From Xenococcaceae cyanobacterium MO_167.B52 (lineage in GTDB: Bacteria > Cyanobacteriota > Cyanobacteriia > Cyanobacteriales > Xenococcaceae): DNA of 34,182 nt. The number at the start of each line of letters is the position of its first letter. Positions within the stretch are counted from its first letter, which is position 1. The position numbers were made by a program, and so were the translations under genes. The notes under the pieces are model-generated. The model was not told the origin of the DNA. It saw only the letters and a list, made by a program, of their open reading frames with translations, and made no database searches. Shown piece after piece: positions 14,780 to 31,700 of the stretch. The DNA lies in the NCBI GenBank assembly GCA_030065315.1, contig JASJDB010000015.1:1-34182 (forward strand), in the 5' to 3' direction.

Positions 14780-15538
14780 CTATAAAAGCCTACCATCTTC
14801 GATCCGAATAATGCGGTCAGCAATATCTAAAATGCGGTTGTCGTGAGTAACCATTAAGATAGCTGAACCCTGTTCTAATGCTAGTCGCTGCATCAAATGA
14901 ATCACATCTCGACCTGTTTTACTGTCTAAAGCAGCAGTGGGTTCATCAGCTAAGATCAGTTTAGGATGATTGACTAAAGCACGCGCAATAGCAACTCTCT
15001 GTTTTTGTCCTCCCGATAAATGTTGGGGATAGGATTTACAGTAGTCTCCTAACTTAACAGCTTTCAACATTGCCTCTGCCTTAGCACGGGCTTTTAGATT
15101 AGTAATAGTTTTGTTCAGTTCAAGAGCTATTTGTACGTTCTGTTGGGCTGTTAAAAACTCCAGTAAATTGTGACCTTGAAAAATATAGCCAATTCTACGA
15201 CGTACCTGGACTAGTTGGTTAGACTTAGCACCACAAAGTTCTTGACCAAGAAATTTTAAACTCCCTTCTCGAATGGAGCGTAACCCACCAATTAAAGTAA
15301 GCAAAGTTGTCTTTCCTGCTCCAGATGGTCCTGTAAGAATGACAATTTCTTTAGATTTTATTTCCAGATTAATATCTAATAATATTGGTTTACGTAAGGC
15401 TTTTTTACCAAAGTAATAGTTTAGATTTTTTATAGTAAGAATAGATTGGAGTTTATCTTGTTTTTTATTGGTTGAAATATTTTGTATCAATTGACTAGAT
15501 TGTGTATCTAATATCTTTAAATTGAGTTGATTATTCAA
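14780..15538 (-). CDS. devA: DevA-type ABC exporter ATP-binding protein
   Basis: ATPase subunit of a DevBCA/MacB-like exporter, 252 aa. Walker A is GPSGAGKTT, the Q-loop is around GYIFQGHNLL, the ABC signature is LSGGQKQR, Walker B is LILADEPT, the D-loop is AALDS and the switch His is in MVTHD. In Anabaena, DevBCA with the outer-membrane channel TolC exports heterocyst glycolipids; DevA energises the complex from the cytoplasm. No ATG exists before the Walker A motif: the frame opens with TTG 15538 right after a TAA, which suggests weak or coupled initiation. The N-terminus has about 35 extra polar residues. It is separated from devC by a small repeat-protein gene, unlike the usual devBCA order without an insert. 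Confidence 0.9.
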   Translation of the reverse strand: MNNQLNLKILDTQSSQLIQNISTNKKQDKLQSILTIKNLNYYFGKKALRKPILLDINLEIKSKEIVILTGPSGAGKTTLLTLIGGLRSIREGSLKFLGQELCGAKSNQLVQVRRRIGYIFQGHNLLEFLTAQQNVQIALELNKTITNLKARAKAEAMLKAVKLGDYCKSYPQHLSGGQKQRVAIARALVNHPKLILADEPTAALDSKTGRDVIHLMQRLALEQGSAILMVTHDNRILDIADRIIRIEDGRLL

Positions 15539-15680: not shown

Positions 15681-16019
15681 TTACACAAAACCAAAGAAAC
15701 CTGCTAGGAAGGCTAAAGTGCCAATAGCAGAAGGATTAGCAAGCTCAGTAACATCAAGTCCGAAAACTTCAACCTCTGGCAACCCTGTTGAATCAGCTTC
15801 TACCTCAACTATATCGCCAACACCGACTTCTACTACAGTTTCAGCGAAAGGAGCGATTTCTAGCTCTACTTCGCCGACTTCTACTACAGTTTCAGCCAAA
15901 GGATCGACTTTTAGCTCTACTTCGCCGACTTCTACTACAGTTTCAGCCAAAGAATCGACTTCTAAGGTTACTAACTCATTGCTAATCTTAATATCTGTTG
16001 TATCCAATAACATACTCAT
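15681..16019 (-). CDS. Small acidic repeat protein between devC and devA
   Basis: A 112-aa acidic protein of unknown function. A 20-aa unit with the core AETVVEVGEVEL is repeated three times in residues 23-68, and the third copy is shortened. The unit is also an approximate 60-bp DNA repeat. The C-terminal third is different: PEVEVFGLDVTELANPSAIG and a hydrophobic, Gly/Phe-rich end (AFLAGFFGFV). There is no signal peptide and no Cys or aromatic cluster. GGAG (16030-16033) lies 10 nt before the ATG at 16019, which supports translation. Its position inside the exporter gene set suggests a partner or cargo of DevBCA, but this is inference; no family was recognised. Confidence 0.65.
   Translation of the reverse strand: MSMLLDTTDIKISNELVTLEVDSLAETVVEVGEVELKVDPLAETVVEVGEVELEIAPFAETVVEVGVGDIVEVEADSTGLPEVEVFGLDVTELANPSAIGTLAFLAGFFGFV
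15788..15962. repeat. Imperfect 60-bp tandem repeat (coding)
   Basis: Three units containing CTTCTACTACAGTTTCAGC followed by AAAGGA and variable sequence, within the acidic repeat protein gene. Unit similarity at the DNA level is high, which indicates recent duplication. Confidence 0.75.
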
Positions 16020-16255: not shown

Positions 16256-17431
16256 TTAAAAGATTTCTGCTGGATCGACAGAACGTAATTTTTGAATTGC
16301 TAAAATGCCTGAAATAATACACATTAAAAACACTGAAAAAAATACATTTAAATTTTTATTTAAAGTCATAATTACTGGTAAATGAGTGGCATTTTCTGCC
16401 ACATCATAGAGTAAAGCTGAACAGATTATTCCAGGTATGTAACCCAAAATAGCTAAGATAAATGCCTGTTGAAATACAGCTATTAATAAATATTTGTTAG
16501 TAAATCCAATTGCTTTTAAAGTGGCATAGGCAACTAAGTAATTAGAGATATTGCTATAAAGAATTTGATAGGTAATACCGATACCAACTACAAAACCCAT
16601 AAAAACCATAAGTTTAAAAATAAAGCCAATAGGAGTTCTTAAATCCCAATATTTTTTTTCCAAATCAATGAACTCGTCCAAAGTTAAAACTTTGACATCT
16701 TTAGGTAAACTAGCTATCAAATCAGCTTGAACTTGTTGAATGTTTGCATTGGGTTTAAGGTTAATCAATCCTAAATCTATTTCGTCAACCTTACGGTCAG
16801 TAAAAGTATTAAGAAAAGTCGAATAGTTGGTAATTAAATTACCATCAACTCCAAAGGAAGGACCAATGCTAAATAAACCATGTATTTTAAATCTTCTGGC
16901 AAGTTTTATTTCATTAAAAGAAGCAATTTCTAGTTTTACTTCTTGTTTGTGATTAAATTCCTGTACAATGGGTCCAAATTCAGGACGTGAAGCACTATCA
17001 AATAAAGCAACATCAGGAAGCTTAATTTTATCTAAGTTTTGATTAATATCTGGGAGTTTAAAAGTTACTTTTCCTGGATCAATTCCAAGTACAAATATCG
17101 AATATTTTTGTCCATTTTCAATATTTTTTAATTTGCCAAATTGGAAATATACAGGACTAATCGAGGCGACGCTTCTCAAGGCAGGAGCTTGATATAGACG
17201 AGTTCGGGGAAAACTTTGTTGGGCAGTTAGAGATTTATATTGAGAACTAATTAAAAACAAATCTCCCTCCAAAGCCTCATTTATTCTTACTGCACTGTCA
17301 AATAAGGCATCTTGAAAACCTAATTGCATAAACAGCAAAATAACGACAAAAGAAATACCCCCTAAGGTAGCGAGAAAGCGAACTTTGTGGTGAATTAATT
17401 GAAACCAAGCGATGGGGATATAGAGCAGCAT
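16256..17431 (-). CDS. devC: DevC-type ABC exporter permease
   Basis: Inner-membrane permease of the MacB/DevC type, 391 aa. The topology is as expected: one N-terminal transmembrane helix (about 18-38), a large periplasmic domain (about 45-265), and three C-terminal helices (FKLMVFMGFVVGIGITYQIL, LLIAVFQQAFILAILGYIPG, FFSVFLMCIISGILAI). The protein ends in the typical RSVDPAEIF motif. By analogy to Anabaena DevBCA it works with a DevB adaptor and TolC to move glycolipid from the inner to the outer membrane. It follows the receiver-DevB gene after 48 bp that carry AGTTAGT-like repeats. Confidence 0.92.
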   Translation of the reverse strand: MLLYIPIAWFQLIHHKVRFLATLGGISFVVILLFMQLGFQDALFDSAVRINEALEGDLFLISSQYKSLTAQQSFPRTRLYQAPALRSVASISPVYFQFGKLKNIENGQKYSIFVLGIDPGKVTFKLPDINQNLDKIKLPDVALFDSASRPEFGPIVQEFNHKQEVKLEIASFNEIKLARRFKIHGLFSIGPSFGVDGNLITNYSTFLNTFTDRKVDEIDLGLINLKPNANIQQVQADLIASLPKDVKVLTLDEFIDLEKKYWDLRTPIGFIFKLMVFMGFVVGIGITYQILYSNISNYLVAYATLKAIGFTNKYLLIAVFQQAFILAILGYIPGIICSALLYDVAENATHLPVIMTLNKNLNVFFSVFLMCIISGILAIQKLRSVDPAEIF

Positions 17432-17479: not shown

Positions 17480-19357
17480 CTAAAGTTGAATTACTACTTG
17501 TACCTGTAAGTTGCTTAAACTGGCTACTCGCGCGCTGGATTCTGGAGCAAGACGAATTTTTACCTCAACTACTTTGTTGTCGGTATCTGCTAGAGGATCA
17601 GAATTAAACACATCTTGACGAGATACTTTTAACCCAATTTCGGCAACTTTGCCTTGGAGTTCCTCAGAGAAAGATGCAGCGGTAACAGTGGCTCGTTGAC
17701 CGATTTTTAATCGTTTGATATCGGTTTCATAAACTTCGGCAACTACATACATTTGTTCTGTTTTACCGATTTCTGCAATTCCTCGATTGCCGATAACTTC
17801 TCCTGGACGCACCTGAACTTTTAACACTTGACCGTCAATAGGCGATCGCACTTCTGTAAGTTCTAAAGTTGCCTCTGCTTGCTTAACCGCAGCTTTGGCT
17901 TGTGCTAGTTCCGCTCTTGCTACTTGTACATCTTCCGCTCGAACTTCAGCAATACTTTCGAGTCTAGCTTTGGCTTCACGGCTCTGAACTTTAGTCGTTT
18001 CAATGGTTCGGTTTAAGGTTTCTTGAGCTTCTTCTAGTTGTCGTTGAACCGTCTTGACTCTTAAGCGTTTTGCATCTCGCTCAGAACTAGAAATAGCTCC
18101 TTCTTCGTATAGCTCTTGACGGCGACGATCTTCTACTTCAGCATTTTCCAATTCAGCTTCTAATCGAGCCAGGGTTGCTTGTTGGGTAGCAATTTGACCA
18201 CGTAATTCAGCTTCTAAACGGTTAATAGTAGCCTTTTGTGCGTCGATATCTCCTTGTTTTGCTCCTGCTTTAACTCGCTCTAGATTAGCTTGGGCTATTT
18301 GAACATCAGCCTTGGCACTTTCTAAAGCAGCTCGACTACGGTTATGGCTATCTAGAATTGCCACAACTTGACCTTGCTGTACTTTATCTCCTCGCTCAAC
18401 TAAAAGTTTTTCGACTCTTGAACCTTCGGCTGCGGAAGATACTGATAATTGAATAATCTCTCCTTCTGGCTCGATCCTTCCCAAAGCAGAAACTGCGGTA
18501 GGCTCAGGAAGAGAAGGTGTAATTGATGATTCCAGAACCGACTCGCTGGCTTGACCAGAGATATCTGGCTTGAATACAGCGATCGCTAATCCAGATATAA
18601 TTAGAGTAGCAATTCCGATTATGGTCCACATCAAGGTTCGCAAACCGAAGGATGTATCTTTTAAAGTCAAGGAGCTCTCGCTCTCGATTGTAGCTTCGAT
18701 CTCTCCAGTCTCTTCAGTTAACGCTAAAGTCGGTTTTGATTCGAGATCTGGCTTGAAAGTAGTAGGCAAATTTGGTTTTGAAATTTCTTCTGGCTTGAAA
18801 GTAGTAGGCAAATTTGGTTTTGAAATTTCTTCTGATCTTAAAGGGAGATCATCCCCTGGCAGTTTCGGCCGAGCAGAACGGCGTATGACATTTTCTAACA
18901 GTCCGGGGCTAATTTGGCAGTAGCCTTTATTGATGGCTCTAATTCCCTCTATGAGTTCGCGCGCGGGTGTTCCTGTTTTGAGAAAATAGCCTTTAGCTCC
19001 TGCTTTGAGACATTCGATCAGATATTGCTCTTTGTTGTAACTACTTAATACCAAAATTTTTGTTTCGGGAAATTGCTCGCAGATAATTCTGGTACTTCTA
19101 ATACCATCAAGTTCTGACAGCTTTATATCCATAAGAACCACATCTGGTCTTTGTTTGGCTACTAATGCGATCGCTTTTTTGCCACTATCTGTCATGCCTA
19201 CTACTTCAAAATCTGATTCCCTTTGGAGTATGATGTTGAGTCCTTCGCGGATTATATTTAAGTCATCTACGATTGAAATCCGAATTTTATTAATTTCATT
19301 CGATTTTTTATATTTATTTGGATAGCCATTTACTTGAGTCATGATTGTAGTTGGCAT
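17480..19357 (-). CDS. devB: Response-regulator receiver / DevB (HlyD) membrane-fusion protein chimera
   Basis: A 625-aa protein that joins two normally separate parts. Residues 24-145 form a CheY-like receiver: acidic pair D31/D32, phospho-acceptor D77 in VLMDIKL, S105 and K127 in YFLKTG. The end (GYCQISPGLLENVIRR) matches NarL-type regulators just before their HTH, but no HTH follows. A Pro-rich linker (146-237) has the duplicated unit EEISKPNLPTTFKP. One transmembrane helix (about 241-262) leads to a DevB/HlyD periplasmic adaptor (287-625): ALGRIEPEG, long coiled-coil hairpin (about 340-480), lipoyl-like LTEVRSPIDGQV and beta-barrel. Topology would place the receiver in the cytoplasm, so phosphorylation could gate the exporter (inference). 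It is the first gene of the devB-devC-orf-devA set, and the frame is continuous. Confidence 0.92.
   Translation of the reverse strand: MPTTIMTQVNGYPNKYKKSNEINKIRISIVDDLNIIREGLNIILQRESDFEVVGMTDSGKKAIALVAKQRPDVVLMDIKLSELDGIRSTRIICEQFPETKILVLSSYNKEQYLIECLKAGAKGYFLKTGTPARELIEGIRAINKGYCQISPGLLENVIRRSARPKLPGDDLPLRSEEISKPNLPTTFKPEEISKPNLPTTFKPDLESKPTLALTEETGEIEATIESESSLTLKDTSFGLRTLMWTIIGIATLIISGLAIAVFKPDISGQASESVLESSITPSLPEPTAVSALGRIEPEGEIIQLSVSSAAEGSRVEKLLVERGDKVQQGQVVAILDSHNRSRAALESAKADVQIAQANLERVKAGAKQGDIDAQKATINRLEAELRGQIATQQATLARLEAELENAEVEDRRRQELYEEGAISSSERDAKRLRVKTVQRQLEEAQETLNRTIETTKVQSREAKARLESIAEVRAEDVQVARAELAQAKAAVKQAEATLELTEVRSPIDGQVLKVQVRPGEVIGNRGIAEIGKTEQMYVVAEVYETDIKRLKIGQRATVTAASFSEELQGKVAEIGLKVSRQDVFNSDPLADTDNKVVEVKIRLAPESSARVASLSNLQVQVVIQL
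18748..18831. repeat. 42-bp perfect tandem duplication in the receiver-DevB linker
   Basis: The unit beginning GGCTTGAAAGTAGTAGGCAA and ending TTTCTTCT occurs twice in tandem and encodes the duplicated 14-aa EEISKPNLPTTFKP. Perfect identity points to a recent slippage event that keeps the frame. Confidence 0.8.
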
Positions 19358-19460: not shown

Positions 19461-21323
19461 CTAGGGCAATGTTAAAGAGATAAAGTGCTTGCCACCTAAT
19501 TCGATTTGTCCTGTTTCACATCCCTCTTGGACTCTGGTGATGAGATAGTCTAAATCTGAAGCAATGACATTAGTGCCGTGATCGGGTTCGATTAAACCAA
19601 CTAAGGCAATATCATCTCGCTCTGCTAGAGAAGAGAGTCCCAAAAAGTTGAGGACTCCCGATTCATAAGTTCCACAGGGGACAGAAGGATTTTTCACTCC
19701 TGCGTAGTATTCACCAGATTTGAACCAATCCGCAGCAGGATAACCGTGGAAATGGACGATGGGCGCACCATTGGCGATTAATTTTGGTACATATAAAGCT
19801 GCTGCTAGAGCGATCGCAACCATCACATAGACATCGTAAGAAGGTTTGATATCAAGCTTTTGAGAGTCAACCCCTTGAGGAAGTTGCAGTACTAGTTTGT
19901 CTGTTAAACCAATTCTAATAACGTCCTGTTCTAAACTCAAATTGGTTTTATTAGAGCCAGAGCGAGAACTCACTAGCCAGAGGTCAGGGATTTGCTGAAA
20001 GACCAGTTTTTCTCCAATTTGGGTTTTGAGGTAACGTCTGCCGATATCATTGCGCCGAACTTCATCCTGACTGAATCCTGCCACAGGTAGTAATTTTTCC
20101 CAGTCTGCTGCGCTTATTTCTCGCTCGCCAATATATTGAGGGGCTTCTATGTAGGCGACAAAACCATAAGATACACCAGTTCTACCATTGACAATAGTGC
20201 TAACAATATCCCGATGAGACTTTCTGGCAATCGTTTTACTAAGCTGAGAACCAGGGGGAAATAAGCCAGTTTTTGCCAGTTTTTGACTTAAAGTTACTAA
20301 TTTTTGGGCATAAGTAGATTCGGTGGGAGCATATTCTCCCAGTTCAAATCGGCTCAGGGGTAAGGGCATGATGGGGACATAAATTTTCGGAACCAGAGAA
20401 TTGAGAACAAAGCGGTCAATTTCCTGGCGGGCAAAAATTGAATCGGAAAGATTCATATTTAAAATGGAAATCTTTTCTGAGGAAACCCCAATGAAAAGCT
20501 CCGAAAAAGTCCGAATTAAAGTATTTAAACCAATGCCTATTTTTTGCTGATAAGGTAGTTGGGGATCGACAAATTCACGGTCTAATTCCGAGAGAGTAAT
20601 AACTTGAGTATTAGTTGGGTCTTCAACATATTTTGCTGCGCCCTCTTCCGCCCAGCCGATGATCTGGGCAATTTTCAATACAGAGAGTTTTTGCTTGTTT
20701 CCTGCAAAGCGACAGTATAGTTGATAGATTTTTTCAGCGACAAATTGCTTGGCTCTACTTAGGATAGTAGGTGGTCTTTCCACATCAATTACTGCCTGAA
20801 TGCCTGTTTTTACCACGAGGGTCTTGATTCTTTTTTGCCACCACTTGAGCAACGGAATTGTGATGTCGTACTGTAACTCTTTTGTGGCTTGCTCCCAAGG
20901 AACTACGGTAACTTGATTATCTTGAAGTTTGAGTTTTAGCTCGTTCCTAAATTGTGAAACTACTTCTTTACTGTACCCTGGAGGTAAAGGTCTAAAAGTC
21001 ACGGCTAACTTTTGAGCCATCACTCTAGAATCAACTACAGGGGGCTGATACTGAGTGGTTAACTGCTGGCTAAATCCGCCAATTAAACCACCAATAGTCT
21101 GAAGGGTTAACCCATTACCACAAGAAACAGAAGGAGAGCTAACAGAATCATTGTTATTTAATTGCTGCAAAAACTTCAGGATTTCCGTCTTATGGGTAGC
21201 TAATTCAGATCGCAGTTCTGGGGTAATTACCCCTTTAGGAGAGCGAATACTTAACTTGTCCTCATTAGCGGACACTTGAACTCCTTGCTGATTGAGTTTG
21301 GTTAAAAGCTCCAATGTGTTCAT
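19461..21323 (-). CDS. Unrecognised protein with N-terminal TubC-type docking domain
   Basis: A 620-aa protein. Residues 1-56 match the TubC_N docking fold used for subunit contacts in NRPS/PKS lines: ELLTKLNQQGVQVSANEDKL, then RSPKGVITPELRSELATHK and a LLxFLQQ end. The remaining 560 residues were not recognised. They contain a GGLIGGFSQQL segment, basic helical stretches, ISILNMNLSD, a FVAYIEAPQYIGE region and a conserved-looking C-terminal part with HFHGYPAADWF, VPCGTYESG and IEPDHGTN. No transmembrane helix is obvious apart from a moderately hydrophobic VAIALAAALYVPKLI. Its place right after the ACP gene and its docking domain imply that it contacts the synthase, perhaps as a release, transfer or tailoring enzyme (inference). 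Confidence 0.75.
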   Translation of the reverse strand: MNTLELLTKLNQQGVQVSANEDKLSIRSPKGVITPELRSELATHKTEILKFLQQLNNNDSVSSPSVSCGNGLTLQTIGGLIGGFSQQLTTQYQPPVVDSRVMAQKLAVTFRPLPPGYSKEVVSQFRNELKLKLQDNQVTVVPWEQATKELQYDITIPLLKWWQKRIKTLVVKTGIQAVIDVERPPTILSRAKQFVAEKIYQLYCRFAGNKQKLSVLKIAQIIGWAEEGAAKYVEDPTNTQVITLSELDREFVDPQLPYQQKIGIGLNTLIRTFSELFIGVSSEKISILNMNLSDSIFARQEIDRFVLNSLVPKIYVPIMPLPLSRFELGEYAPTESTYAQKLVTLSQKLAKTGLFPPGSQLSKTIARKSHRDIVSTIVNGRTGVSYGFVAYIEAPQYIGEREISAADWEKLLPVAGFSQDEVRRNDIGRRYLKTQIGEKLVFQQIPDLWLVSSRSGSNKTNLSLEQDVIRIGLTDKLVLQLPQGVDSQKLDIKPSYDVYVMVAIALAAALYVPKLIANGAPIVHFHGYPAADWFKSGEYYAGVKNPSVPCGTYESGVLNFLGLSSLAERDDIALVGLIEPDHGTNVIASDLDYLITRVQEGCETGQIELGGKHFISLTLP

Positions 21324-21412: not shown

Positions 21413-21700
21413 TTAAATTTCCAATATTTCGGAATCTTCTAATTCTTCGGCTAAACGCTCTGCTAGACTTTGGATTGTGGGATAGTACCAAAGAAGCCTA
21501 GGTGATAGCTCAAAAGCAAACTGTTTTTCGGCTCTACTCACTAGCAACATGGCTTGGGCGGAATCTAAACCATAGTTTTCAATCGGTTCTTGGACATCAA
21601 TCTCATCAGGTTCAACTCCTAGCTGTTCGGATATGTTTTCCACTAGCCAAGTTTTAATTGTTTCTACGCTATAAGTTGTATTTAAAATTCGCTGAGTCAT
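21413..21700 (-). CDS. Free acyl carrier protein
   Basis: A 95-aa stand-alone carrier protein. The 4'-phosphopantetheine attachment site is Ser47 in NYGLDSAQAM, followed by a normal helix II/III pattern (LLVSRAEKQFAFELSPRLLW, then PTIQSLAERL). This PKS-type ACP differs from the DLGIDS type of the PfaA-like ACPs, so it probably serves another step: loading, release or hand-over to the TubC_N protein (inference). Its ATG lies 2 nt after the stop of the enoyl reductase gene, implying translational coupling. Confidence 0.92.
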   Translation of the reverse strand: MTQRILNTTYSVETIKTWLVENISEQLGVEPDEIDVQEPIENYGLDSAQAMLLVSRAEKQFAFELSPRLLWYYPTIQSLAERLAEELEDSEILEI

Positions 21701-21702
21701 AG

Positions 21703-23328
21703 TTAAAGTTCTGAGGTAAAAGGAACAGGATGATATTGATTATAGCGATCGCTCAATTGCAGACCTTGTAATTTCAAACTCTGCATCCGATACAAATAGG
21801 CAGTTCCCGTGAGCATATGTAATGCCACATCAACTACTCTGCGATTTTGGGGTTCGGCAAGGTAAGAACCCCGAACCCAATCGTTAAAAGCTCCCATAGC
21901 AGGACCACACCAAATTTGATAATCCATTTCTCTGCCTTTTTCTCCAGAGTTTGACCAACGGGAAGATAAGCCTAAGTACCAGCGAAAAATTAAAGCCATC
22001 TTCAGCTTGGGATTCTTCTGGGCTTTGGCTAATTTATCGGGATTACGTTGGGATAGATAGACGGTGGTATCTTGCCAAACAGCTTCGAGAGGTCTACGAA
22101 AAATCTGTTTTTCGATCTTCTCTCGCTCTTGGGTCGGAATAGCTGCGATGGAGTCATAAGCTTTATAGAGGTCGAAGAGTTTTTGCGCTCGTAAGGGAAA
22201 CATGGAACCTCGTTTCAAGACTTGTAGTTTCACCCCCATCTCAAACATATCAGCAGCAGGAGCCATCATGACATCGTGCATTTCGGCGGTTGCTAGTAAC
22301 TTTTTGGCATGGGTTGAAGTTCCCGCCTCCAGACAAGATTGATTAACTGAACCTGTTACCACATAAGCAGCACCCATCATGTAAGCAGCTAATGCGGATT
22401 GAGGGGTAGCAATTCCCCCAGCTACACCCACTCGGACAGGGTTGGAGTAATTATATTGCTGTTGAATTGTGTCTCTCAATTCTAAAATCGAAGGTAACAG
22501 ACATACCAAAGGGCGATTATCCGTATGACCACCAGAATCTGCTTCCACGGTAATATCGTCCGCCATTGGTACTTGGGCAGCTAACTTTGCCTGTAACTCA
22601 GTAATTAATCCTTGTTCTAGCAATTCTTGAACCATTTTGGGGGGTGCTGGTTGCAAAAACTTGGTTGCTACTTCCCTTCGAGAAATTTTGGCGATGACTT
22701 TGTGGTTGATTTGAATGCGATCGCCATTTAAAGCCAGTCCAGACAGACGATAATAGACAATATGGGGAGTTAAATCAAGAAAAGCTGAAGCTTCGACCAC
22801 ATTAACGCCATATTTAACATATAAATCTATTGTTCCCCGTTCCATTGCTGGCTCACTGGGATTGTGGAGCAAATTTAAAGCATAAGGACCATTGGGAAGA
22901 GCCTGCTGAATGCGTTGAATAGCTGCTTCTACTCGCTTGAGACTTAAGCCCCCTGCACCAAAGGAACTTAAAATTTGTTGTTTGCCTAAAGCAATCACTA
23001 ATTCCTCCGAAGCAATCCCTCCAGCCATTGCCCCCGTAAAGTAGGTGTACTTAACACCGTAAAATTCGCGAAAATTGCGATCGCCTAACTGTTCTTTGGG
23101 TAAAGGTGGGACAGCCATCAGCAATTGAGTTTCTGGTTGCTGAATCCAATAATCTTCGTTAGTTACACCAATTTTTCCTGAGGTTTTTACAACATAACAA
23201 GGTTGGTCTAAATTTAGCAATTTAGCTTTGATACTTGCTTCATCAAAAGCAATAGAATTTTTCTTACTTTCTTGATCAAAACCTGAATAATTATTGTAAT
23301 TATTTTTTATATTTTCAGTACTAATCAC
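21703..23328 (-). CDS. pfaD: PfaD-type FMN-dependent trans-acting enoyl reductase
   Basis: TIM-barrel flavoenzyme of the PfaD/nitronate monooxygenase-like family, which reduces enoyl intermediates on a PUFA-synthase-like PKS. Typical segments are YTYFTGAMAGGIASEELVIA, FGAGGLSL, YALNLLHNPSEPAMERG, VEASAFLDLTP, a GGHTDNRP motif, RVGVAGGIATPQSALAAYMM and AAYVVTGSVNQ. The length (541 aa) is normal. The start is GTG 23328, overlapping the end of the preceding gene by 8 nt, with an AGAGG ribosome binding site in that gene's last codons. Adjacent to the PfaB-like and ACP genes in one transcript. Confidence 0.93.
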   Translation of the reverse strand: MISTENIKNNYNNYSGFDQESKKNSIAFDEASIKAKLLNLDQPCYVVKTSGKIGVTNEDYWIQQPETQLLMAVPPLPKEQLGDRNFREFYGVKYTYFTGAMAGGIASEELVIALGKQQILSSFGAGGLSLKRVEAAIQRIQQALPNGPYALNLLHNPSEPAMERGTIDLYVKYGVNVVEASAFLDLTPHIVYYRLSGLALNGDRIQINHKVIAKISRREVATKFLQPAPPKMVQELLEQGLITELQAKLAAQVPMADDITVEADSGGHTDNRPLVCLLPSILELRDTIQQQYNYSNPVRVGVAGGIATPQSALAAYMMGAAYVVTGSVNQSCLEAGTSTHAKKLLATAEMHDVMMAPAADMFEMGVKLQVLKRGSMFPLRAQKLFDLYKAYDSIAAIPTQEREKIEKQIFRRPLEAVWQDTTVYLSQRNPDKLAKAQKNPKLKMALIFRWYLGLSSRWSNSGEKGREMDYQIWCGPAMGAFNDWVRGSYLAEPQNRRVVDVALHMLTGTAYLYRMQSLKLQGLQLSDRYNQYHPVPFTSEL

Positions 23329-26215
23329 TTATTACCTCTTTGTAATTTTTTTTGCTTTTTTTGGTATATTGTTGCTCTACTAACTCTAATTTTAGTGAAA
23401 GAATATTACTAATTTGACTTAGGTTTTCTTGACGAGACTGCAAAAAATTAGCGTGGATTTGGGTGATTTTAGAATTCCCCTCTGCTAGTTTTTGCTTGAA
23501 TATGATATCACGATTATTAGAGGTTTTTTGAGATAAAACACTATGTTTTTTAGTATTTAAAGGGATTTCAAGTTTGGGATTGGGAATCTTTTCCTTGACT
23601 TTTGTCTCGAATTTTTCAAGCTCTTTTTGAGGATTATTAACTATATCTAGTTTTTTTTGAGAAATGTCTGAATTGGATTTTAAAGATGTTAGGTTATCGG
23701 TATTTTTGTTCTTAATAACTACTTTTTGTTGTTTAGTTTTAATAGTAGCAATATTTTCATTAAATGCAATATTTTTTGTTCCTTTGGTTATTTTTGCAGT
23801 TTGATAATTATTATTGATTGGTGACTTTTGACCACTGTCTTTAAAAGCTTTTTTAGGAGAAAAACTGCCATAATTAGCAATATTTGAAGCTAGACTCTGT
23901 TCTTGCTCATACAGAGGTGATAAATCTAGTTCGACACGATGACTCAAAAGCTTAGCTAAGGCTTTGACCAGAGAAACATGGTCGTCTATGCCTCTGCGAT
24001 GGAGGGAAACCGTTAAATGTTCTTGAGGCTTCAGGATTTCCCTAATCCAGCGAGAACAATTACTTCCTGCACCTACTTCAATAAAAATGCGAAACTCATC
24101 CTGATAAACTCGGTTAACTAAACGGGAAAAATCAAGCTGCTCACAGAGGGTTTGACTGATGATTTCAGCGATTTTCTGACGGTTAAAATTAACTGGTTCG
24201 TAGTGAGCAGCAGAATAAAAAGTAGTTGTGAGATGATTTTGTAGGGGTAAAGTGTTGATTCGTACCAGTTCTTCATACTCCGAGTCCATAATAGGACAGT
24301 GGATGACATGGTTAAAAGGAGCGCGGAAAGCATCGCAGTTGAGGTCTTCAATTACTCTCTTACAAGCACTGGGAGCACCAGCAATCACTACCTCTTTGGG
24401 GGTACTAATTTGAGTTAGGAAAACTCGACTTTCTAGTTTCACTCGCTCTTTAACTATGGAAGCTGAAGCCATCAACACATAGGTACACCAAATATCTGAC
24501 TCAGAATCTGGCAATTGCCAATAATCTCGCACCGCCTCCTTAGAGCCAGCTAAGCGGGTTTGAAACAGGGGTGAGGTGTTTAAGCGATCGCTACTTTGAC
24601 CCATATCAGTCCACACTCCCTGAGCGTACATCGCGCTGATTTCCCCTAAGCTATAGCCGAAAATCCCTTTAGGCTGTATTTGGAAGTAATCTCTTAAAAC
24701 TGCGGTCATTAATCCAGCAAAGCCCATTTCTGATTCCAGCATTGCTAGGGGATCGCTCATTAATTTAGCTTCTGAAGCCTCTAGTTTTCTCCTCGATAGT
24801 TGCTCCCAACTTCGGGGATAGAGGAGTCTTTCCAGTTTTGCCAAACGGTTACGAGTACTTTGAATTACTGGATCATCGAATAATTTGGGAAAGATGCGAA
24901 ATAAATTTCGCCCCAAGCCAAGATGGGCGTTATAAGCCCCTGGATAGACGTAAGCAACCTTGCCTTTTCTCCCTTGAGGATTGAGAGTAAAGTAGCTACC
25001 TGTAGGAGTTTGCCAATCTTTTTCGGTAGCAAAAGCCTGGTCAATACCTTTAACAGCCCGTTCGATTTCTCGCAGTAAGTCTGATTTGGTTTTTCCCAAA
25101 ATCGCTAAAGCATAAGGATAGTGGGGATATTTTTGATAGGTAATAAACGTTTGCTGGGCAGTCAAAGATAGAGAATCACTAGCTTCGATGGCTTGCTGAA
25201 GAGTGCGAAGTTGCTGGTGTAAATTATTGCGATCGCTGCCTGCTAGGGGGAACAGATAAAAAGAGGTTTGTTCTAGATAGGAACTCTGGTATTCTTGAGG
25301 CTCTGATGCTTCGGTTAAAATCAGATGGGCATAGGTGCTGTGAACCGCAGCAATTCTAGTTGCTCCTGGTGCTAAAAACCAGGGTTTGGATTCAGTAACT
25401 ACATAGAAAGGATTATTGTGCCATTTTGCCTCTTTTGCAGGCGACCACTCAGGAAAAGCCGGAATATAACGATAATAGAGACAGAGTGCAGTTTTAATAA
25501 TGCTGGCAATTTCTGAGATAACACCAAGATTGGTAGTATTACCAAGAGCGCAGCTACAACTACTCTCAGAAGTTCCATAAGCTGCGATTGCATCTGTGAT
25601 TCTGGCATCATCTGCGGATACTGTTTCCCGACTGCAAATGTCCAGATAACCGATTGCTGCTGGCTCAATTCCCGCTTGGGCAAAAGCTGCTTCACCAGTT
25701 TTTGGGATTACTTCTGAGTCTTGAGAAGAATCCTGAACCACGTTAGTTACAATCTCGGCATAGATCCGATTCTGCTGCTGTTTAGCAGTTGTATCGAGTT
25801 GTAAGACTACTGCTCCGATATTAGCTTGACCAGCACTGGCCATGAGTAGCAATGTATCCACTGTGCCAGAAAATAAAACCTTTTGGGCTGTTGCTATCGC
25901 CTGAAAAACGGAACTTTCAGGGGTTAAATTGAGGAAATCCCCCACTTTAGGAACAATGGGATTCCTCCCATCATTAGCAACAATAACTGCAACTTTCACC
26001 CCTGTAACTAGGTTGGCATCCTCAAGAGCATTGTTTGCTACTTTGATCAGTAGTTGCTCTGTTGGTAAGTGTTCCCGTTCTTCGACACTAAGATGCTCCT
26101 GGGATTTTCCTTCATAAATACTCTGTTCCCAAGCCGACAAGGATTCACAATGACCAAAGTAAACATCCATGCCGACAATAGCCAGTTTTGGTTCGGTTGC
26201 TAGTTTAATTTCCAT
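23321..26215 (-). CDS. PfaB/HglC-like protein: degenerate ketosynthase plus acyltransferase
   Basis: About 964 aa. Residues 10-305 have a ketosynthase-like fold (KLAIVGMDVYFGHCESLSAW) but lack the catalytic DxxCxSS element: that place reads NLTPESSVFQAI, as in PfaB-type proteins. An acyltransferase follows (about 418-760): KVAYVYPGAYNAHLGLGRN at the start and Ser523 in GYSLGEISAMYA as nucleophile. The last about 150 residues are Lys/Asn/Ser-rich low complexity (SPKKAFKDSGQKSPINNN and similar) ending KKSKKNYKEVISD, with no domain. In PUFA synthases PfaB determines acyl transfer and product type. The frame opens with TTG 26218, but the next codon, ATG 26215, is the better start. It overlaps pfaD by 8 nt. 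Confidence 0.88.
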   Translation of the reverse strand: MEIKLATEPKLAIVGMDVYFGHCESLSAWEQSIYEGKSQEHLSVEEREHLPTEQLLIKVANNALEDANLVTGVKVAVIVANDGRNPIVPKVGDFLNLTPESSVFQAIATAQKVLFSGTVDTLLLMASAGQANIGAVVLQLDTTAKQQQNRIYAEIVTNVVQDSSQDSEVIPKTGEAAFAQAGIEPAAIGYLDICSRETVSADDARITDAIAAYGTSESSCSCALGNTTNLGVISEIASIIKTALCLYYRYIPAFPEWSPAKEAKWHNNPFYVVTESKPWFLAPGATRIAAVHSTYAHLILTEASEPQEYQSSYLEQTSFYLFPLAGSDRNNLHQQLRTLQQAIEASDSLSLTAQQTFITYQKYPHYPYALAILGKTKSDLLREIERAVKGIDQAFATEKDWQTPTGSYFTLNPQGRKGKVAYVYPGAYNAHLGLGRNLFRIFPKLFDDPVIQSTRNRLAKLERLLYPRSWEQLSRRKLEASEAKLMSDPLAMLESEMGFAGLMTAVLRDYFQIQPKGIFGYSLGEISAMYAQGVWTDMGQSSDRLNTSPLFQTRLAGSKEAVRDYWQLPDSESDIWCTYVLMASASIVKERVKLESRVFLTQISTPKEVVIAGAPSACKRVIEDLNCDAFRAPFNHVIHCPIMDSEYEELVRINTLPLQNHLTTTFYSAAHYEPVNFNRQKIAEIISQTLCEQLDFSRLVNRVYQDEFRIFIEVGAGSNCSRWIREILKPQEHLTVSLHRRGIDDHVSLVKALAKLLSHRVELDLSPLYEQEQSLASNIANYGSFSPKKAFKDSGQKSPINNNYQTAKITKGTKNIAFNENIATIKTKQQKVVIKNKNTDNLTSLKSNSDISQKKLDIVNNPQKELEKFETKVKEKIPNPKLEIPLNTKKHSVLSQKTSNNRDIIFKQKLAEGNSKITQIHANFLQSRQENLSQISNILSLKLELVEQQYTKKSKKNYKEVISD

Positions 26216-26309
26216 CAATGTTAGTTAAGTAATAAAGTAGTCAACAAATTATTTCTTCTTTGTCCCCTCTGCCAGCCAAAATTATCTATTGATTCAACAA
26301 ATATTTAAT

Positions 26310-28040
26310 TTACCCAGGTGGCAAGGAAATAATAGTTCCCCTTGCTCCCATCATTTGGGAATAAATTTGACCATTTTGCTTGTGGGCAATAACATCCGCT
26401 ACTACCGCCGTATCGGTTTTGGATTTAATTTCACAAGAAACATAAAAAGTTTCACCAAAAGCAATGGAAGCATACTGTTCATAGTGTGCGATCGCTGAAG
26501 GCAAGCAAATCTGTTGATGTAAATACTGGCTCCATAACCATAAGGAGTGAATTTGTACGTCCAAGATATAAGGATTAAAAGTTTGAACTGGAAACTGTCC
26601 CTGTACTTGGGATGCTACTGGAGGTAAAGAACACTGGATGGTTATTTTTTCCTCATTACAATTGAGGATTTTTTGAACTCCTTGGAAAGAAGCACCATGA
26701 AACAAACTCAACCCACCGCTCTGATAAAAATCATTTTTAATGACCTGTTGTGGTTGGGGGGTTAGATTTAATGACTCATACTGAGGAGAGTCGGGAATCT
26801 TTACTTTGAGAACTAGCTGAGTGCTGAAGTGATAGCGGATTTTTCCTGCTTGATTCTTACTCCAAATACGAGCTTCAAATTCTATTTGATCCCTATCTTT
26901 GGTAATTTCTGTCAGGTCTAAAATATATTCCTGGGGAATATTGTCTTCAAAAACAATTCCTTTTAGAACTTTGAACTGTTGACAGCCAAAATACTTATAG
27001 CCTGGATAAATTTGTTCGCAACTATTGGTAATCCAGGACATCGCACAAGCAGCAGGTAACACGGGACGATTGGCGATCACGTGATCTAGTAGAAAGGGAT
27101 TAGCAGCTATAGATAGGCGACGGCGAATTTGATAGCTTTTTAATTGGGGATCTATAGCGATCGCTGAAGGAGTCAAAGGGCTACCAATAATAATTTGGGT
27201 ATCTTGATTTGGGGTTGCTAGTTCTTCTACTAGCATCTGTGTGCCAACCTCAATAGGAATGGTTTCAATGCCCCGTTCAGCAAAAGCCTGTTTTAATTGA
27301 GGGCTAACCATCCCACTATCCCAAGGACCCCAATCAATCGCTACGACTCGACAGTGGGGGTGATCTCGCTTTACTAAATGGGCTGTTTTGTTGAGAATGT
27401 CATTGGCAAGGGCATAATCTGTTTGCCCGGCATTGCCATAAAAACCCACTACCGAAGAAAACAGCACTAAATAATCTAGTTGACTAGGATCGACGCAACT
27501 GAGTAAATTTCTTAACCCCAATACTTTAGGTGCATAGACGATATCGTAATCTAGCTCAGATTTTTTCTCAATGGGCTTGTCTGCCAGATTTCCTGCACCG
27601 TGGATAATGGCAGTGACTGAACCAAGCCGTTCCACAGCTACTGCTAGTTCCGCTGCCAGGGCGGTTTCATCTGTCACATCCACACTGAGATATTCCGCCT
27701 TTCCACCTGCGGATTCAATTTCTCGTAAGGTTTGTTCAATTTCTCGTTTAGCTGTGATCGCTTTGTACTCTTTTTGCACCATCACAGGAGTTGGTTTGGT
27801 GCCTTGTTCTAGCAAATGCTCTAGAATACGCTTTTTTAATTCCAATTCACTGTTACAGTCTCGTAACCAAGTTGCTTCTGGTTGAGAGATTGAGGAACGC
27901 CCCAACAAAATAAACTTACATTGATATTGCCGAGCAACGGCGATCGCTGCTTGGGCGGTGATTCCTTTACCACCACCACTAACTAGACAAACCGAATTGG
28001 CATCCATTCCCTTGGTTATTCTTTCTTCAAGACTGATCAT
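26310..28040 (-). CDS. Ketoreductase catalytic domain plus dehydratase-like domain
   Basis: 576 aa. Residues 15-290 are the catalytic half of a PKS ketoreductase: NADPH motif SGGGKGITA (21-29), catalytic LFSSVVGF (Ser195/196), Tyr209 in QTDYALAN and Asn213. From about 300 a PKS dehydratase-like hotdog region follows, with His320 in FLLDHVIANRPVLP; the HxxxGxxxxP motif has Asn in place of Gly. It reduces beta-keto and probably dehydrates intermediates on the PfaA-like protein. Its ATG follows directly on the in-frame TAA of the preceding ORF, with GGGGG five nt upstream of that TAA-ATG. The structural half of the KR is in the other ORF, so the two must act together or be made as one chain. Confidence 0.9.
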   Translation of the reverse strand: MISLEERITKGMDANSVCLVSGGGKGITAQAAIAVARQYQCKFILLGRSSISQPEATWLRDCNSELELKKRILEHLLEQGTKPTPVMVQKEYKAITAKREIEQTLREIESAGGKAEYLSVDVTDETALAAELAVAVERLGSVTAIIHGAGNLADKPIEKKSELDYDIVYAPKVLGLRNLLSCVDPSQLDYLVLFSSVVGFYGNAGQTDYALANDILNKTAHLVKRDHPHCRVVAIDWGPWDSGMVSPQLKQAFAERGIETIPIEVGTQMLVEELATPNQDTQIIIGSPLTPSAIAIDPQLKSYQIRRRLSIAANPFLLDHVIANRPVLPAACAMSWITNSCEQIYPGYKYFGCQQFKVLKGIVFEDNIPQEYILDLTEITKDRDQIEFEARIWSKNQAGKIRYHFSTQLVLKVKIPDSPQYESLNLTPQPQQVIKNDFYQSGGLSLFHGASFQGVQKILNCNEEKITIQCSLPPVASQVQGQFPVQTFNPYILDVQIHSLWLWSQYLHQQICLPSAIAHYEQYASIAFGETFYVSCEIKSKTDTAVVADVIAHKQNGQIYSQMMGARGTIISLPPG

Positions 28041-28709
28041 TTAAACCCCCATTAAAGTAGTGCGTCCTTTTACCCCATAAGCCACTTCAGCAACTAAACG
28101 ATTGGGATCGTGTAGTTCTGCCATAATATGTTTTACTGCCACAGATGACTCAAGATCAGGATCAAGGTCAATTGCCCGACAAAAGACTGAGTTCCATTCC
28201 CAGCGCAAAGCTTTAGTTAGCCCAAATAAGCCTCCTGCGGTTGCACTAAAGTCACGTTTACCACTCAAACCAAACTCTCCATCGAGATGAGCCACCGTCA
28301 GAAAACAACTCCGTCCTTGTTTGGCTGCTTGATTGAGAGAGACTTTGAGATGTTTGGCTAAGAAAAAGACTTGTTTAAGAATTGCTGCTTCTTGTTTCTG
28401 ATAACTATCATCTTGGGCTTTTTTCAGCGGAGGATGGAGATGAATAAAAGTACTGATTGAGCCGTATTTATTAGCGATCGCCTTTAGTTGAGAATCTATT
28501 TCCCTTCCCTCTTCGAGAACAACACGATCAAACCCTTTTGAGAAGGATGTTTCTGGGGTTAAAGAGTGCAGAAAACTCAACATTACTACTTTTGCTCCTT
28601 GTTGGGTCAGAGATTGAGCGAGAGGGGCTGCTAAAGGTGATCCATTATCGCTTAAGAGAATAATCTGTCCTGGGGAAAAATCGAACTCTAGCCAATCTGG
28701 CTCTGGCAA
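28041..28709 (-). CDS. Structural (N-terminal) half of the split ketoreductase
   Basis: 222 aa, matching the non-catalytic Rossmann subdomain that precedes catalytic KR domains in PKSs (QIILLSDNGSPLAAPLAQSL, then WNSVFCRAIDLDPDLESSVA and VAYGVKGRTTLMGV). No ATG precedes residue 43: the frame has only TTG 28709 as a start, without a well-spaced ribosome binding site. The same frame is open further upstream to a TGA at the A9 run and there encodes RSPVSLKVLPEPDWLEF, which looks like the usual lead-in to this domain. This implies translation from the PfaA-like ORF by a -1 shift, or a frameshift mutation. It ends with TAA directly before the ATG of the next ORF, same frame. Confidence 0.8.
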   Translation of the reverse strand: MPEPDWLEFDFSPGQIILLSDNGSPLAAPLAQSLTQQGAKVVMLSFLHSLTPETSFSKGFDRVVLEEGREIDSQLKAIANKYGSISTFIHLHPPLKKAQDDSYQKQEAAILKQVFFLAKHLKVSLNQAAKQGRSCFLTVAHLDGEFGLSGKRDFSATAGGLFGLTKALRWEWNSVFCRAIDLDPDLESSVAVKHIMAELHDPNRLVAEVAYGVKGRTTLMGV

Positions 28710-28747
28710 AACCTTGAGACTAACTGGCGATCGCCCGATCTTCCCTC

Positions 28748-31700
28748 TTATGACCGACTCACCATTAAATTCGCTGGAGGAGTTTTTTTTTCAGCCCGAT
28801 CAGCTTGTAGATAGTCAACAATTTGACCAAGAGTCTGAAATTCTGACCCAGACAAATCAAGTTGAAACTCAGGAATTCGCTCTTGCAGTGCTGCTAAAAT
28901 TTCCTGCCGTTTGATGAGGTCAATGCCTAAATCCGTTGTTAGATTCATCTCTAAATCCAGCATAGAGATGGGATAGCCTGTTGTTTCACTGACCACAGTA
29001 AAGAGGGTGTGACCCATCGAGTTGGACTCAATAGAAGGTTGTACAGGGGCTTGAGTTGCTTCTTCTACTATGGAAGTTGACTCAATAGAAGATTGTACAG
29101 AGGTTTCAGTTGCCTCTTCTAGAGAATCGGTTTCCACTTTGGCAGTATAAGATTGTAAATAATCAATAATCTGTGCCAAAGTGCTTAATCCTGCTAATTC
29201 TTCTAGGTTAGGTTGAGGCAAATCAGGCATTTGCTCTCGCAACCCTCCCAAAATTTCCACTCGTTTAATGGAGTCAATCCCCAAATCTGCCTCTAAATCC
29301 ATCTCCATCTCTAGCATTTCTGCGGGATAGCCTGTTTTATCACTCACCACCTCAAGGAGGGTTTGACTGAGAGTCGCAACATCAATTTCTGGAGTTGAGG
29401 GTGTTGCTACGGTAATAAAGTTAGATAAATCTGGTTCGACTACTTGAGCAGTTTCTTTTTCTGGTAAAGCAATAGTAGTTTGTTGGGTTCCGTTACTATG
29501 TCCCTTACCATTGCTGTGATAATAGCCATTCCCATTACCATTGACAGTAATTGGAACAGTGGTCACTTGTAGTTCCGACTCAGTAGTAGGAGCAATCAAC
29601 TCTGTTACTTGAGAAGGCTGGGATGATGTAATTTCTGTCTCTATCTGACTAATAGGAATCCCACCAGTTAATAGTTGTGAATAGCTTTGCTGGGTTAACT
29701 GCAACAGATTTTTGGCATATTCTCCCTGATGATTTAAGTATTGCTCGTGAACTCTCAGAGTATCGGTTTGATGCTCCTGAAACTTCATGAGACTGCGCTC
29801 GGAACTTTGAATTACTGCGGTGTGGCTTTGTTGTGCTTCGGGAGTAGTTGACAGATTGAACCACAAATTATTTTGTTGCTGTATCAGTTGGAAAAAGGTT
29901 TTAGTGTATTCCGTCTGATGGTTGAGATAGAGCTTGTGAACTTCTAAAGTTTCCTGTTGATGTCGACTAAATTGATTCAGGCTATATTCTAAGCTTTCGA
30001 GCACTCTAGGGTAATTAACTTCTAATCTAGGTTGAATCTTAGCTTCAACTGGTGATCCTGTAACTAGGTCTTGAGGTTCTGTAGAGGAATGTCCATTTTG
30101 TTGGGCTGTTGTAACCGCAGTTTTAGCAAGTCCATTCTCAGAACTAGATTTGATCTGATGCCCATTTTGCAGTGCTTGTTCAAAACTCATCTTACTTTTT
30201 TCCGACTGATAATTGACACTACTTAAACGCACGTTTAAAGGATGTTTCGGAGTTGGGGTTATTTTTGGTGGTAATTGATAGGGGTCAAGATTTTTTAAGG
30301 GTAAACCTGCAACAAGTAACTGAACTACCGCCTCTCTCAGTTGATAATCACTATCCTGTTGACGACTGGAATTGAGAGCTATAGCTAGATGAGGGCGATC
30401 TCCTAAAATCTCATCTACCAGGTTAGTCAAAATTCTTCTAGGTCCAAACTCAACGAAACAGAACCCACCAGCAGCGTAAATATTTTCAATTTCCTTTTTA
30501 AATAACACTCGATTTAGTAAGTGTTGCTTGAGGATTTTTTTGCTAGCTTCTGGTTCATCGGGATAGAAATCGCCAGTTACATTAGTCAGGATAGGAATCT
30601 GGGACTTGTTAAAGGTAACTTGATCCACAGCACGGGCAAAAGGTTCTTGAGCATGACCCACCAGGGGAGTATGAAACGCAGCAGATACAGGAAGCAATAC
30701 AGCTTGATATTCTTGCTGCTGTAAAATCTCTTGAACTTTCAGAATTTCCGACTTAACACCTGCCAAAACCACCTGTTGCGGTGAATTATAGTTAGCAACG
30801 GCGACCTGGGGAAATGGAGCGATTATAGCTTCAATTTGGCTGACATCTCCGCTAACTGCCAGCATCGCCCCTGTCTCAGAGCCGGATTTAGCAGACATGG
30901 CTTGACCCCTTTCTTTGACTAAGAAGAAGTAATCTTCATCACTAAGAACTTGAGCAGCCCAAAGAGCCGTTAGTTCACCAAAACTGTGTCCTGCAACGAA
31001 ATCTGGTCTAAATCCCGCCTGTTGTAGAATTTTATATAATCCCACACTCAAACCTGCGATCGCAGGTTGAGCTGTTTCTGTTTGCCGTAAAGCTGTCTCT
31101 TGAGCTTCTCTTTGAGCAGAATTGAAGGTAGGAGGGGGAAAAACCCGTCGGGAAATTGCTATCTTACCATCATCAGTAAACAGGCGATCAATCTCGCTAT
31201 AAGTTTGACGCAGACAAGGGAAATTGATTGCTAATTCCCGCCCCATTTCTAGATACTGAGAACCCTGACCAGAAAATAAAGCAACTACCTTTCCTTCCGT
31301 CTCTAAGCCAGTTTGACGATAAAAAATGCCATGGGGATGTTTCCAGTCTTGGGCTTCGGGTTGTCTCTTTAAACAGTTGATCGCTTTTTTGAGTTTATCG
31401 GTTGCTTCAGTAAGAGAGGCAGCCACAAATCCCAAACGAGGTGCAGCAGCAGGAATTTCTCTAGCTTTACTTGCTTCTAACAGTCCTTGATAAAACTTTT
31501 CCTTTTCTTCCGACTGTAGCTGCTCTAACACTTCTTGACATCTACTTAATAATTGCTCAAAAGTTGCCTCTGTTAACAGTATGACTTGAGCATTGTCATG
31601 TAAGCGATAAGAACTATTTTGTTCTGGTTCATATTCTTCTAAAACCACATGATAGTTTGTTCCACCAAAGCCAAAAGAACTCACTCCCGCTCGCCGTGGC

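Follow-up and report, generated by a model that had tools for sequence, protein, structure and literature searches.

What does a response-regulator receiver do when it is attached not to a DNA-binding domain but to the periplasmic adaptor of an exporter? The question is raised by a gene at positions 17480–19357 (minus strand) of the window, that is, the whole 34,182-nucleotide stretch of DNA analysed here. A preliminary description had given exactly these coordinates without the strand. Response regulators have been described chiefly as transcription factors or as enzymes, and both parts of the protein belong to families that are already known, the NarL receivers and the DevB/MacA adaptors.

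The open reading frame encodes a receiver-TM-DevB fusion of 625 amino acids, as delimited by the frame itself and by Pfam and NCBIfam models. The probable start is M6 at 19342, in register with the first residue of the ortholog in genome G021, and the protein may therefore be 620 amino acids long. Residues 27–132 (18962–19279, minus strand) constitute a NarL/LiaR-type receiver on the basis of Pfam PF00072, conservation, and an AF2 model. The Response_reg match has an E-value of 5.6e-24 and a score of 84.9 bits against a cut-off of 30.2 bits. The receiver is complete, with its acidic pocket (D31, 19265–19267; D32, 19262–19264), the phospho-Asp (D77, 19127–19129), the Ser/Thr position (S105, 19043–19045), and the Lys (K127, 18977–18979), all on the minus strand; Ser105 and Tyr124 are the switch residues. 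Modelled in isolation, this part adopts a receiver fold with a pLDDT of 91.4, and the nearest solved structures (top Foldseek hits) are activated LiaR, VraR, and DesR.

The receiver is followed by a linker that includes a perfect 14-residue tandem duplication, two copies of EEISKPNLPTTFKP, in a flexible stretch at residues 176–203 (18749–18832, minus strand). A single TM helix spans approximately residues 244–262 (18572–18628, minus strand), as judged by hydropathy and charge. Lys and Arg are more frequent on the N-terminal side of this helix by charge count, which places the receiver in the cytoplasm and fits an adaptor with a cytoplasmic N-terminus. The full-chain AF2 model puts a helix at residues 239–253 with low confidence; its mean pLDDT is only 56, since receiver rows and DevB rows did not combine into one alignment, and it served for secondary structure only. 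Residues 289–623 (17489–18493, minus strand) form the DevB membrane-fusion domain, which covers positions 1–327, the whole of the heterocyst_DevB model TIGR02971 (6.9e-105, 351 bits, curated cut-off 129 bits). The preliminary description had located D31/D32, D77, and K127 at these positions and had called the linker Pro-rich, which is fair; its placement of one TM helix between the receiver and a full DevB adaptor likewise agrees with the hydropathy profile and the whole-model match. No helix-turn-helix (HTH) downstream of the receiver was matched by Pfam or NCBIfam models, the region being occupied by linker, TM helix, and DevB. By every test that can be run on the sequence, the product is a DevB-family membrane fusion protein; it is not a NarL/FixJ response regulator, since it has no C-terminal LuxR-type HTH.

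The neighboring genes are those of a DevB operon. Downstream, on the same strand, lie the exporter permease DevC of the FtsX/MacB type (16256–17431, minus strand, TIGR01185, 426.8 bits) and the ATPase DevA (14780–15538, minus strand, TIGR02982, 348 bits). Between them is a small ORF of 112 amino acids without a family match that consists of VDPLAETVVEVGEVEL repeats (15681–16019, minus strand); ORFs similar in style occupy the same devC/devA position in G010 and G021. Upstream, all on the minus strand, are a 620-amino acid protein with a TubC_N docking domain (19461–21323; Pfam and synteny), a stand-alone acyl carrier protein (ACP) of 95 amino acids (21413–21700), a PfaD-family enoyl reductase (21703–23328, TIGR02814), a PfaB-family protein (23321–26218, TIGR02816), and PKS genes (26310–33169). 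The latter comprise 26310–28040, a PfaA-like KR at 28041–28709 (profile match), and a KS-AT-ACP protein at 28748–33169 that is labeled HglE-like from a reading of its sequence. From their sequences, these upstream genes are a heterocyst-glycolipid-like, PUFA-type PKS island, and the DevBCA exporter presumably carries its product, the substrate being inferred from the PKS neighborhood only.

The gene order of the window is matched in G010 and G021 (PfaB-PfaD-[reductase]-TubC_N-[GT]-REC-DevB-DevC-DevA), and the TubC_N protein is 60–62% identical to its counterparts there. The islands of these two genomes additionally encode an ACP-thioester reductase, a DUF2141 protein, and a family-2 glycosyltransferase; the stand-alone ACP of the window sits where they carry the reductase, and the DUF2141 and glycosyltransferase genes are absent from the window island. 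A further ORF of the window, at 293–1825, reads in translation as a reverse transcriptase/maturase of the group II intron type whose C-terminus is HNH-like.

The corresponding locus in other families has no receiver. Seven such loci (L262–L268) carry DevBCA beside PKS genes, with DevB proteins of 395–445 amino acids. Identities to the window are 52–60% for DevB and DevC (52–57% for DevB), 65–73% for DevA, and 54–59% between their PKS and the protein encoded at 28748–33169. Among 390 genomes sampled across the class, matches spanning both receiver and DevB came from family members only, at a strict E-value that could miss divergent fusions elsewhere. The receiver-less DevB at the corresponding PKS-linked locus makes the fusion a lineage-specific domain gain, in which the short N-terminal cytoplasmic tail of the adaptor was probably replaced by a functional receiver. 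The receiver-less exporters provide a natural control for what the receiver adds.

The DevB fusion is part of a wider set of receivers with membrane outputs. A paralogous REC-TM-HlyD type-I-secretion adaptor of about 715–767 amino acids occurs in all 27 family genomes, including the single-contig G015, and is incomplete at a contig edge in G009; the copy in the source genome, G000, is cut by the end of contig C425 (L005:3–776, minus strand). Its orthologs in the class-wide sample mostly begin after the receiver, the exceptions that keep it (G257, G302, and G325) all belonging to one other family. Another 20 receiver-bearing ORFs of 620–710 amino acids were found, and ten were scanned: eight are HlyD-like, and two give low-scoring matches to the Wzz/tyrosine-kinase domain GNVR. 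Further fusion partners of receivers are GNVR/Wzz-like proteins, BON proteins, and coiled-coil proteins with a tail anchor. In the receiver-TM-BON proteins L120:8494–9540 and L130:5487–6506, Asn replaces the phospho-Asp, which makes them pseudo-receivers.

Several individual loci illustrate this variety. At L006:1501–3372 (G000, C155), which comes after a glycosyltransferase gene, the receiver is joined to a coiled-coil protein that resembles Wzz/GumC and has two TM helices. In L007, L010, and L011 (G000, C67, C283, and C200), a coiled coil comes after the receiver and a TM anchor lies at the C-terminus, with no HTH; L007 and L010 had been misfiled as HTH regulators by a motif, an assignment rejected on reading the sequences. 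At L106:6951–9968 and L112:782–3505, the C39 ABC exporters that adjoin receiver-HlyD adaptors have a cNMP-binding domain at the N-terminus, so that both subunits bear regulatory domains. L123:987–2033 and L122:597–1643, from Leptolyngbyaceae and Pseudanabaenales MAGs, combine a receiver with an unrecognised 200-amino acid output without TM helix or HTH.

In a tree of the receivers, built on 124 columns from rows picked by similarity to the query and without three long-branch rows, one branch with support 97/91 separates 38 membrane-output receivers from 48 HTH receivers, the latter classified partly by motif with doubtful cases read individually. The DevB fusions form two groups, an hgl type and an NRPS/PKS-neighborhood type, and a single origin for them is possible. 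The preliminary description had proposed that the adaptor replaced the HTH of a NarL regulator. The HTH is indeed missing; a one-off replacement does not hold, and because the receiver groups with membrane-output receivers, the protein is better read as an adaptor that gained a receiver of the membrane type. Whether a distinct NarL-type receiver lineage has left transcription in this family and now serves as a plug-in phospho-switch on machines of the inner membrane (DevB and HlyD adaptors, GNVR/Wzz-like chain-length proteins, BON proteins, and coiled coils with a tail anchor) is an evenly balanced proposition.

Within the family, the search for this architecture that had been proposed beforehand recovered the REC-DevB fusion from independent genomes, in 8 of 27: G000, G006, G010, G012, G014, G021 (twice), G023, and G024. 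G023 has an additional second copy of the hgl type, which is broken. By identical DNA, G009 corresponds to Hyella patelloides LEGE 07179 and G023 to Hyellaceae cyanobacterium CSU_1_1. The eight intact fusion proteins align end to end, and D31, D32, D77, S105, and K127 are invariant among them.

The most likely role of the receiver, to which we assign a probability of roughly 60%, is that of a switch by which phosphorylation governs the assembly or the activity of the exporter. In this reading, the fusion is the periplasmic adaptor in a DevBCA exporter, MacB-like and placed beside the heterocyst-glycolipid-like PKS island, and a histidine kinase encoded elsewhere would phosphorylate D77. The LiaR, VraR, and DesR receivers change their receiver-receiver contacts upon phosphorylation, and the fused receiver may do the same. 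Adaptors of the MacA/DevB type act as hexamers; with one receiver per subunit, a ring of about six adaptors would bring together an equal ring of receivers at the cytoplasmic side, near DevC and DevA. Phosphorylation of D77 could then alter contacts within this ring or with DevC/DevA, favoring or opposing adaptor assembly or ATPase coupling and thereby gating the release of the glycolipid-like product from the cell. The linkers of the aligned fusions are long and divergent, which makes a rigid connection across the membrane unlikely. Other members of the receiver lineage might act likewise on type-I secretion (HlyD) and on GNVR/Wzz-like proteins. An intact, conserved receiver under selection suggests that the cell may be able to throttle export by phosphorylating the exporter itself.

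The phosphodonor would be encoded at a distance. A partner histidine kinase gene had been sought nearby, and none is adjacent: the 34-kb window contains no kinase gene (PF02518, PF07730), and none of the 73 HATPase matches in the source genome falls on the six contigs with membrane receivers (C54, C425, C155, C67, C283, and C200), in an assembly of 449 contigs and 79% completeness from which a partner kinase could be missing. NarL-type receivers usually pair with kinases of the HisKA_3 class. The source genome has two of these kinases, each beside an HTH regulator (C93 and C132), and there are none in G010 (99% complete) or G014 (96% complete), though both hold the fusion; the donor would therefore be of another class.

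Orphan status and divergent linkers would equally suit a receiver that serves as a phosphorylation-independent protein-protein module, one that dimerises or clusters the exporter or docks it to its synthase or to some site in the cell. The two BON-type relatives carrying Asn still keep the architecture, so part of the lineage works without phosphorylation. Of the exporter fusions, 39 of 39 retain the switch positions (phospho-Asp, Lys, and Tyr), while the phospho-Asp is lost in both BON fusions sampled, a contrast that speaks for a role of phosphorylation in the exporters. Interaction surfaces alone need no acid pocket, and we consider a purely structural module unlikely.

Signal flow might instead run in reverse, the tethered receiver acting as a phosphate sink or informing a kinase of how loaded or how fully assembled the exporter is, and so tuning gene expression rather than export. 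Transporters of the BceAB type do feed two-component systems. The SLC5/STAC kinases are a further instance (PMC9100948). The orphan state of the receivers would be compatible with such a route; the receiver, however, is on the adaptor and not on the energised subunit, and its lineage is also attached to non-transport proteins, which together make reverse flow improbable.

Compared with a phosphorylation switch on an intact fusion, separate action of the two parts, through internal initiation after the receiver or through proteolysis, is very improbable. In the G024 copy a TAA falls between the parts and is followed by an open DevB frame of 458 amino acids, as two chains would allow. Against this, the fusion is open in eight intact copies, and no internal ATG, GTG, or TTG is conserved between orthologs. 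In the window, no start codon between receiver and TM helix has a Shine-Dalgarno sequence, and the first ATG after the receiver is residue 243, at the edge of the TM helix. Two chains by internal start are accordingly rejected.

Codon comparison of three DevB-fusion pairs gave receiver dN/dS values of 0.17, 0.17, and 0.12, the third from a pair with dS near saturation. These are close to the 0.10–0.13 of DevB, and the linker is looser (0.39–0.51 where not saturated); receivers of REC-HlyD proteins range from 0.02 to 0.09. On these ratios, the receiver is under purifying selection like the adaptor. An assembly artefact or a decaying relic, which the fragmented source genome might invite, is refuted by orthologs of the fusion in G010 and G021, where the gene order is shared, by the REC-HlyD protein in single-contig G015, and by an intact receiver under purifying selection, in agreement with the earlier view that decay was unlikely.

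If correct, direct phospho-control of an export conduit would be a new class of response-regulator output, with two-component signaling acting on export without gene regulation. It would account for orphan receivers in those cyanobacteria whose genomes contain dozens of histidine kinase genes, and it offers a testable route for quick switching of lipid, peptide, and polysaccharide secretion. No description of receiver-HlyD/DevB fusions or of membrane-bound response regulators was found in the open-licence literature, and an account in a subscription journal is possible.

Among known systems, the hgl-like islands of non-heterocystous cyanobacteria (PMC11804610) resemble the window in pairing a PKS island with exporter genes; HG analogs are reported there from a Pleurocapsales strain, and its main text makes no mention of DevB or response regulators. 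HlyD/NHLP-type adaptors beside C39 ABC exporters are represented by the paralogous REC-TM-HlyD of every family genome, yet they belong to a different adaptor family, and their orthologs outside the family mostly have no receiver. The NarL/LiaR/VraR/DesR regulators have receiver sequence, fold, and phosphorylation residues in common with the fusion, which differs in having no HTH, in having a membrane-inserted exporter adaptor as its output, and in lying on the opposite side of a supported branch. The closest exporters are the MacB-like tripartite DevBCA-HgdD/HgdBC glycolipid exporters of Anabaena, whose likeness extends to full-length matches to the DevB, DevC, and DevA models and to the adjoining hgl-like PKS. 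Their DevB, at about 390–445 amino acids, has no receiver, whereas the DevB of the window does.
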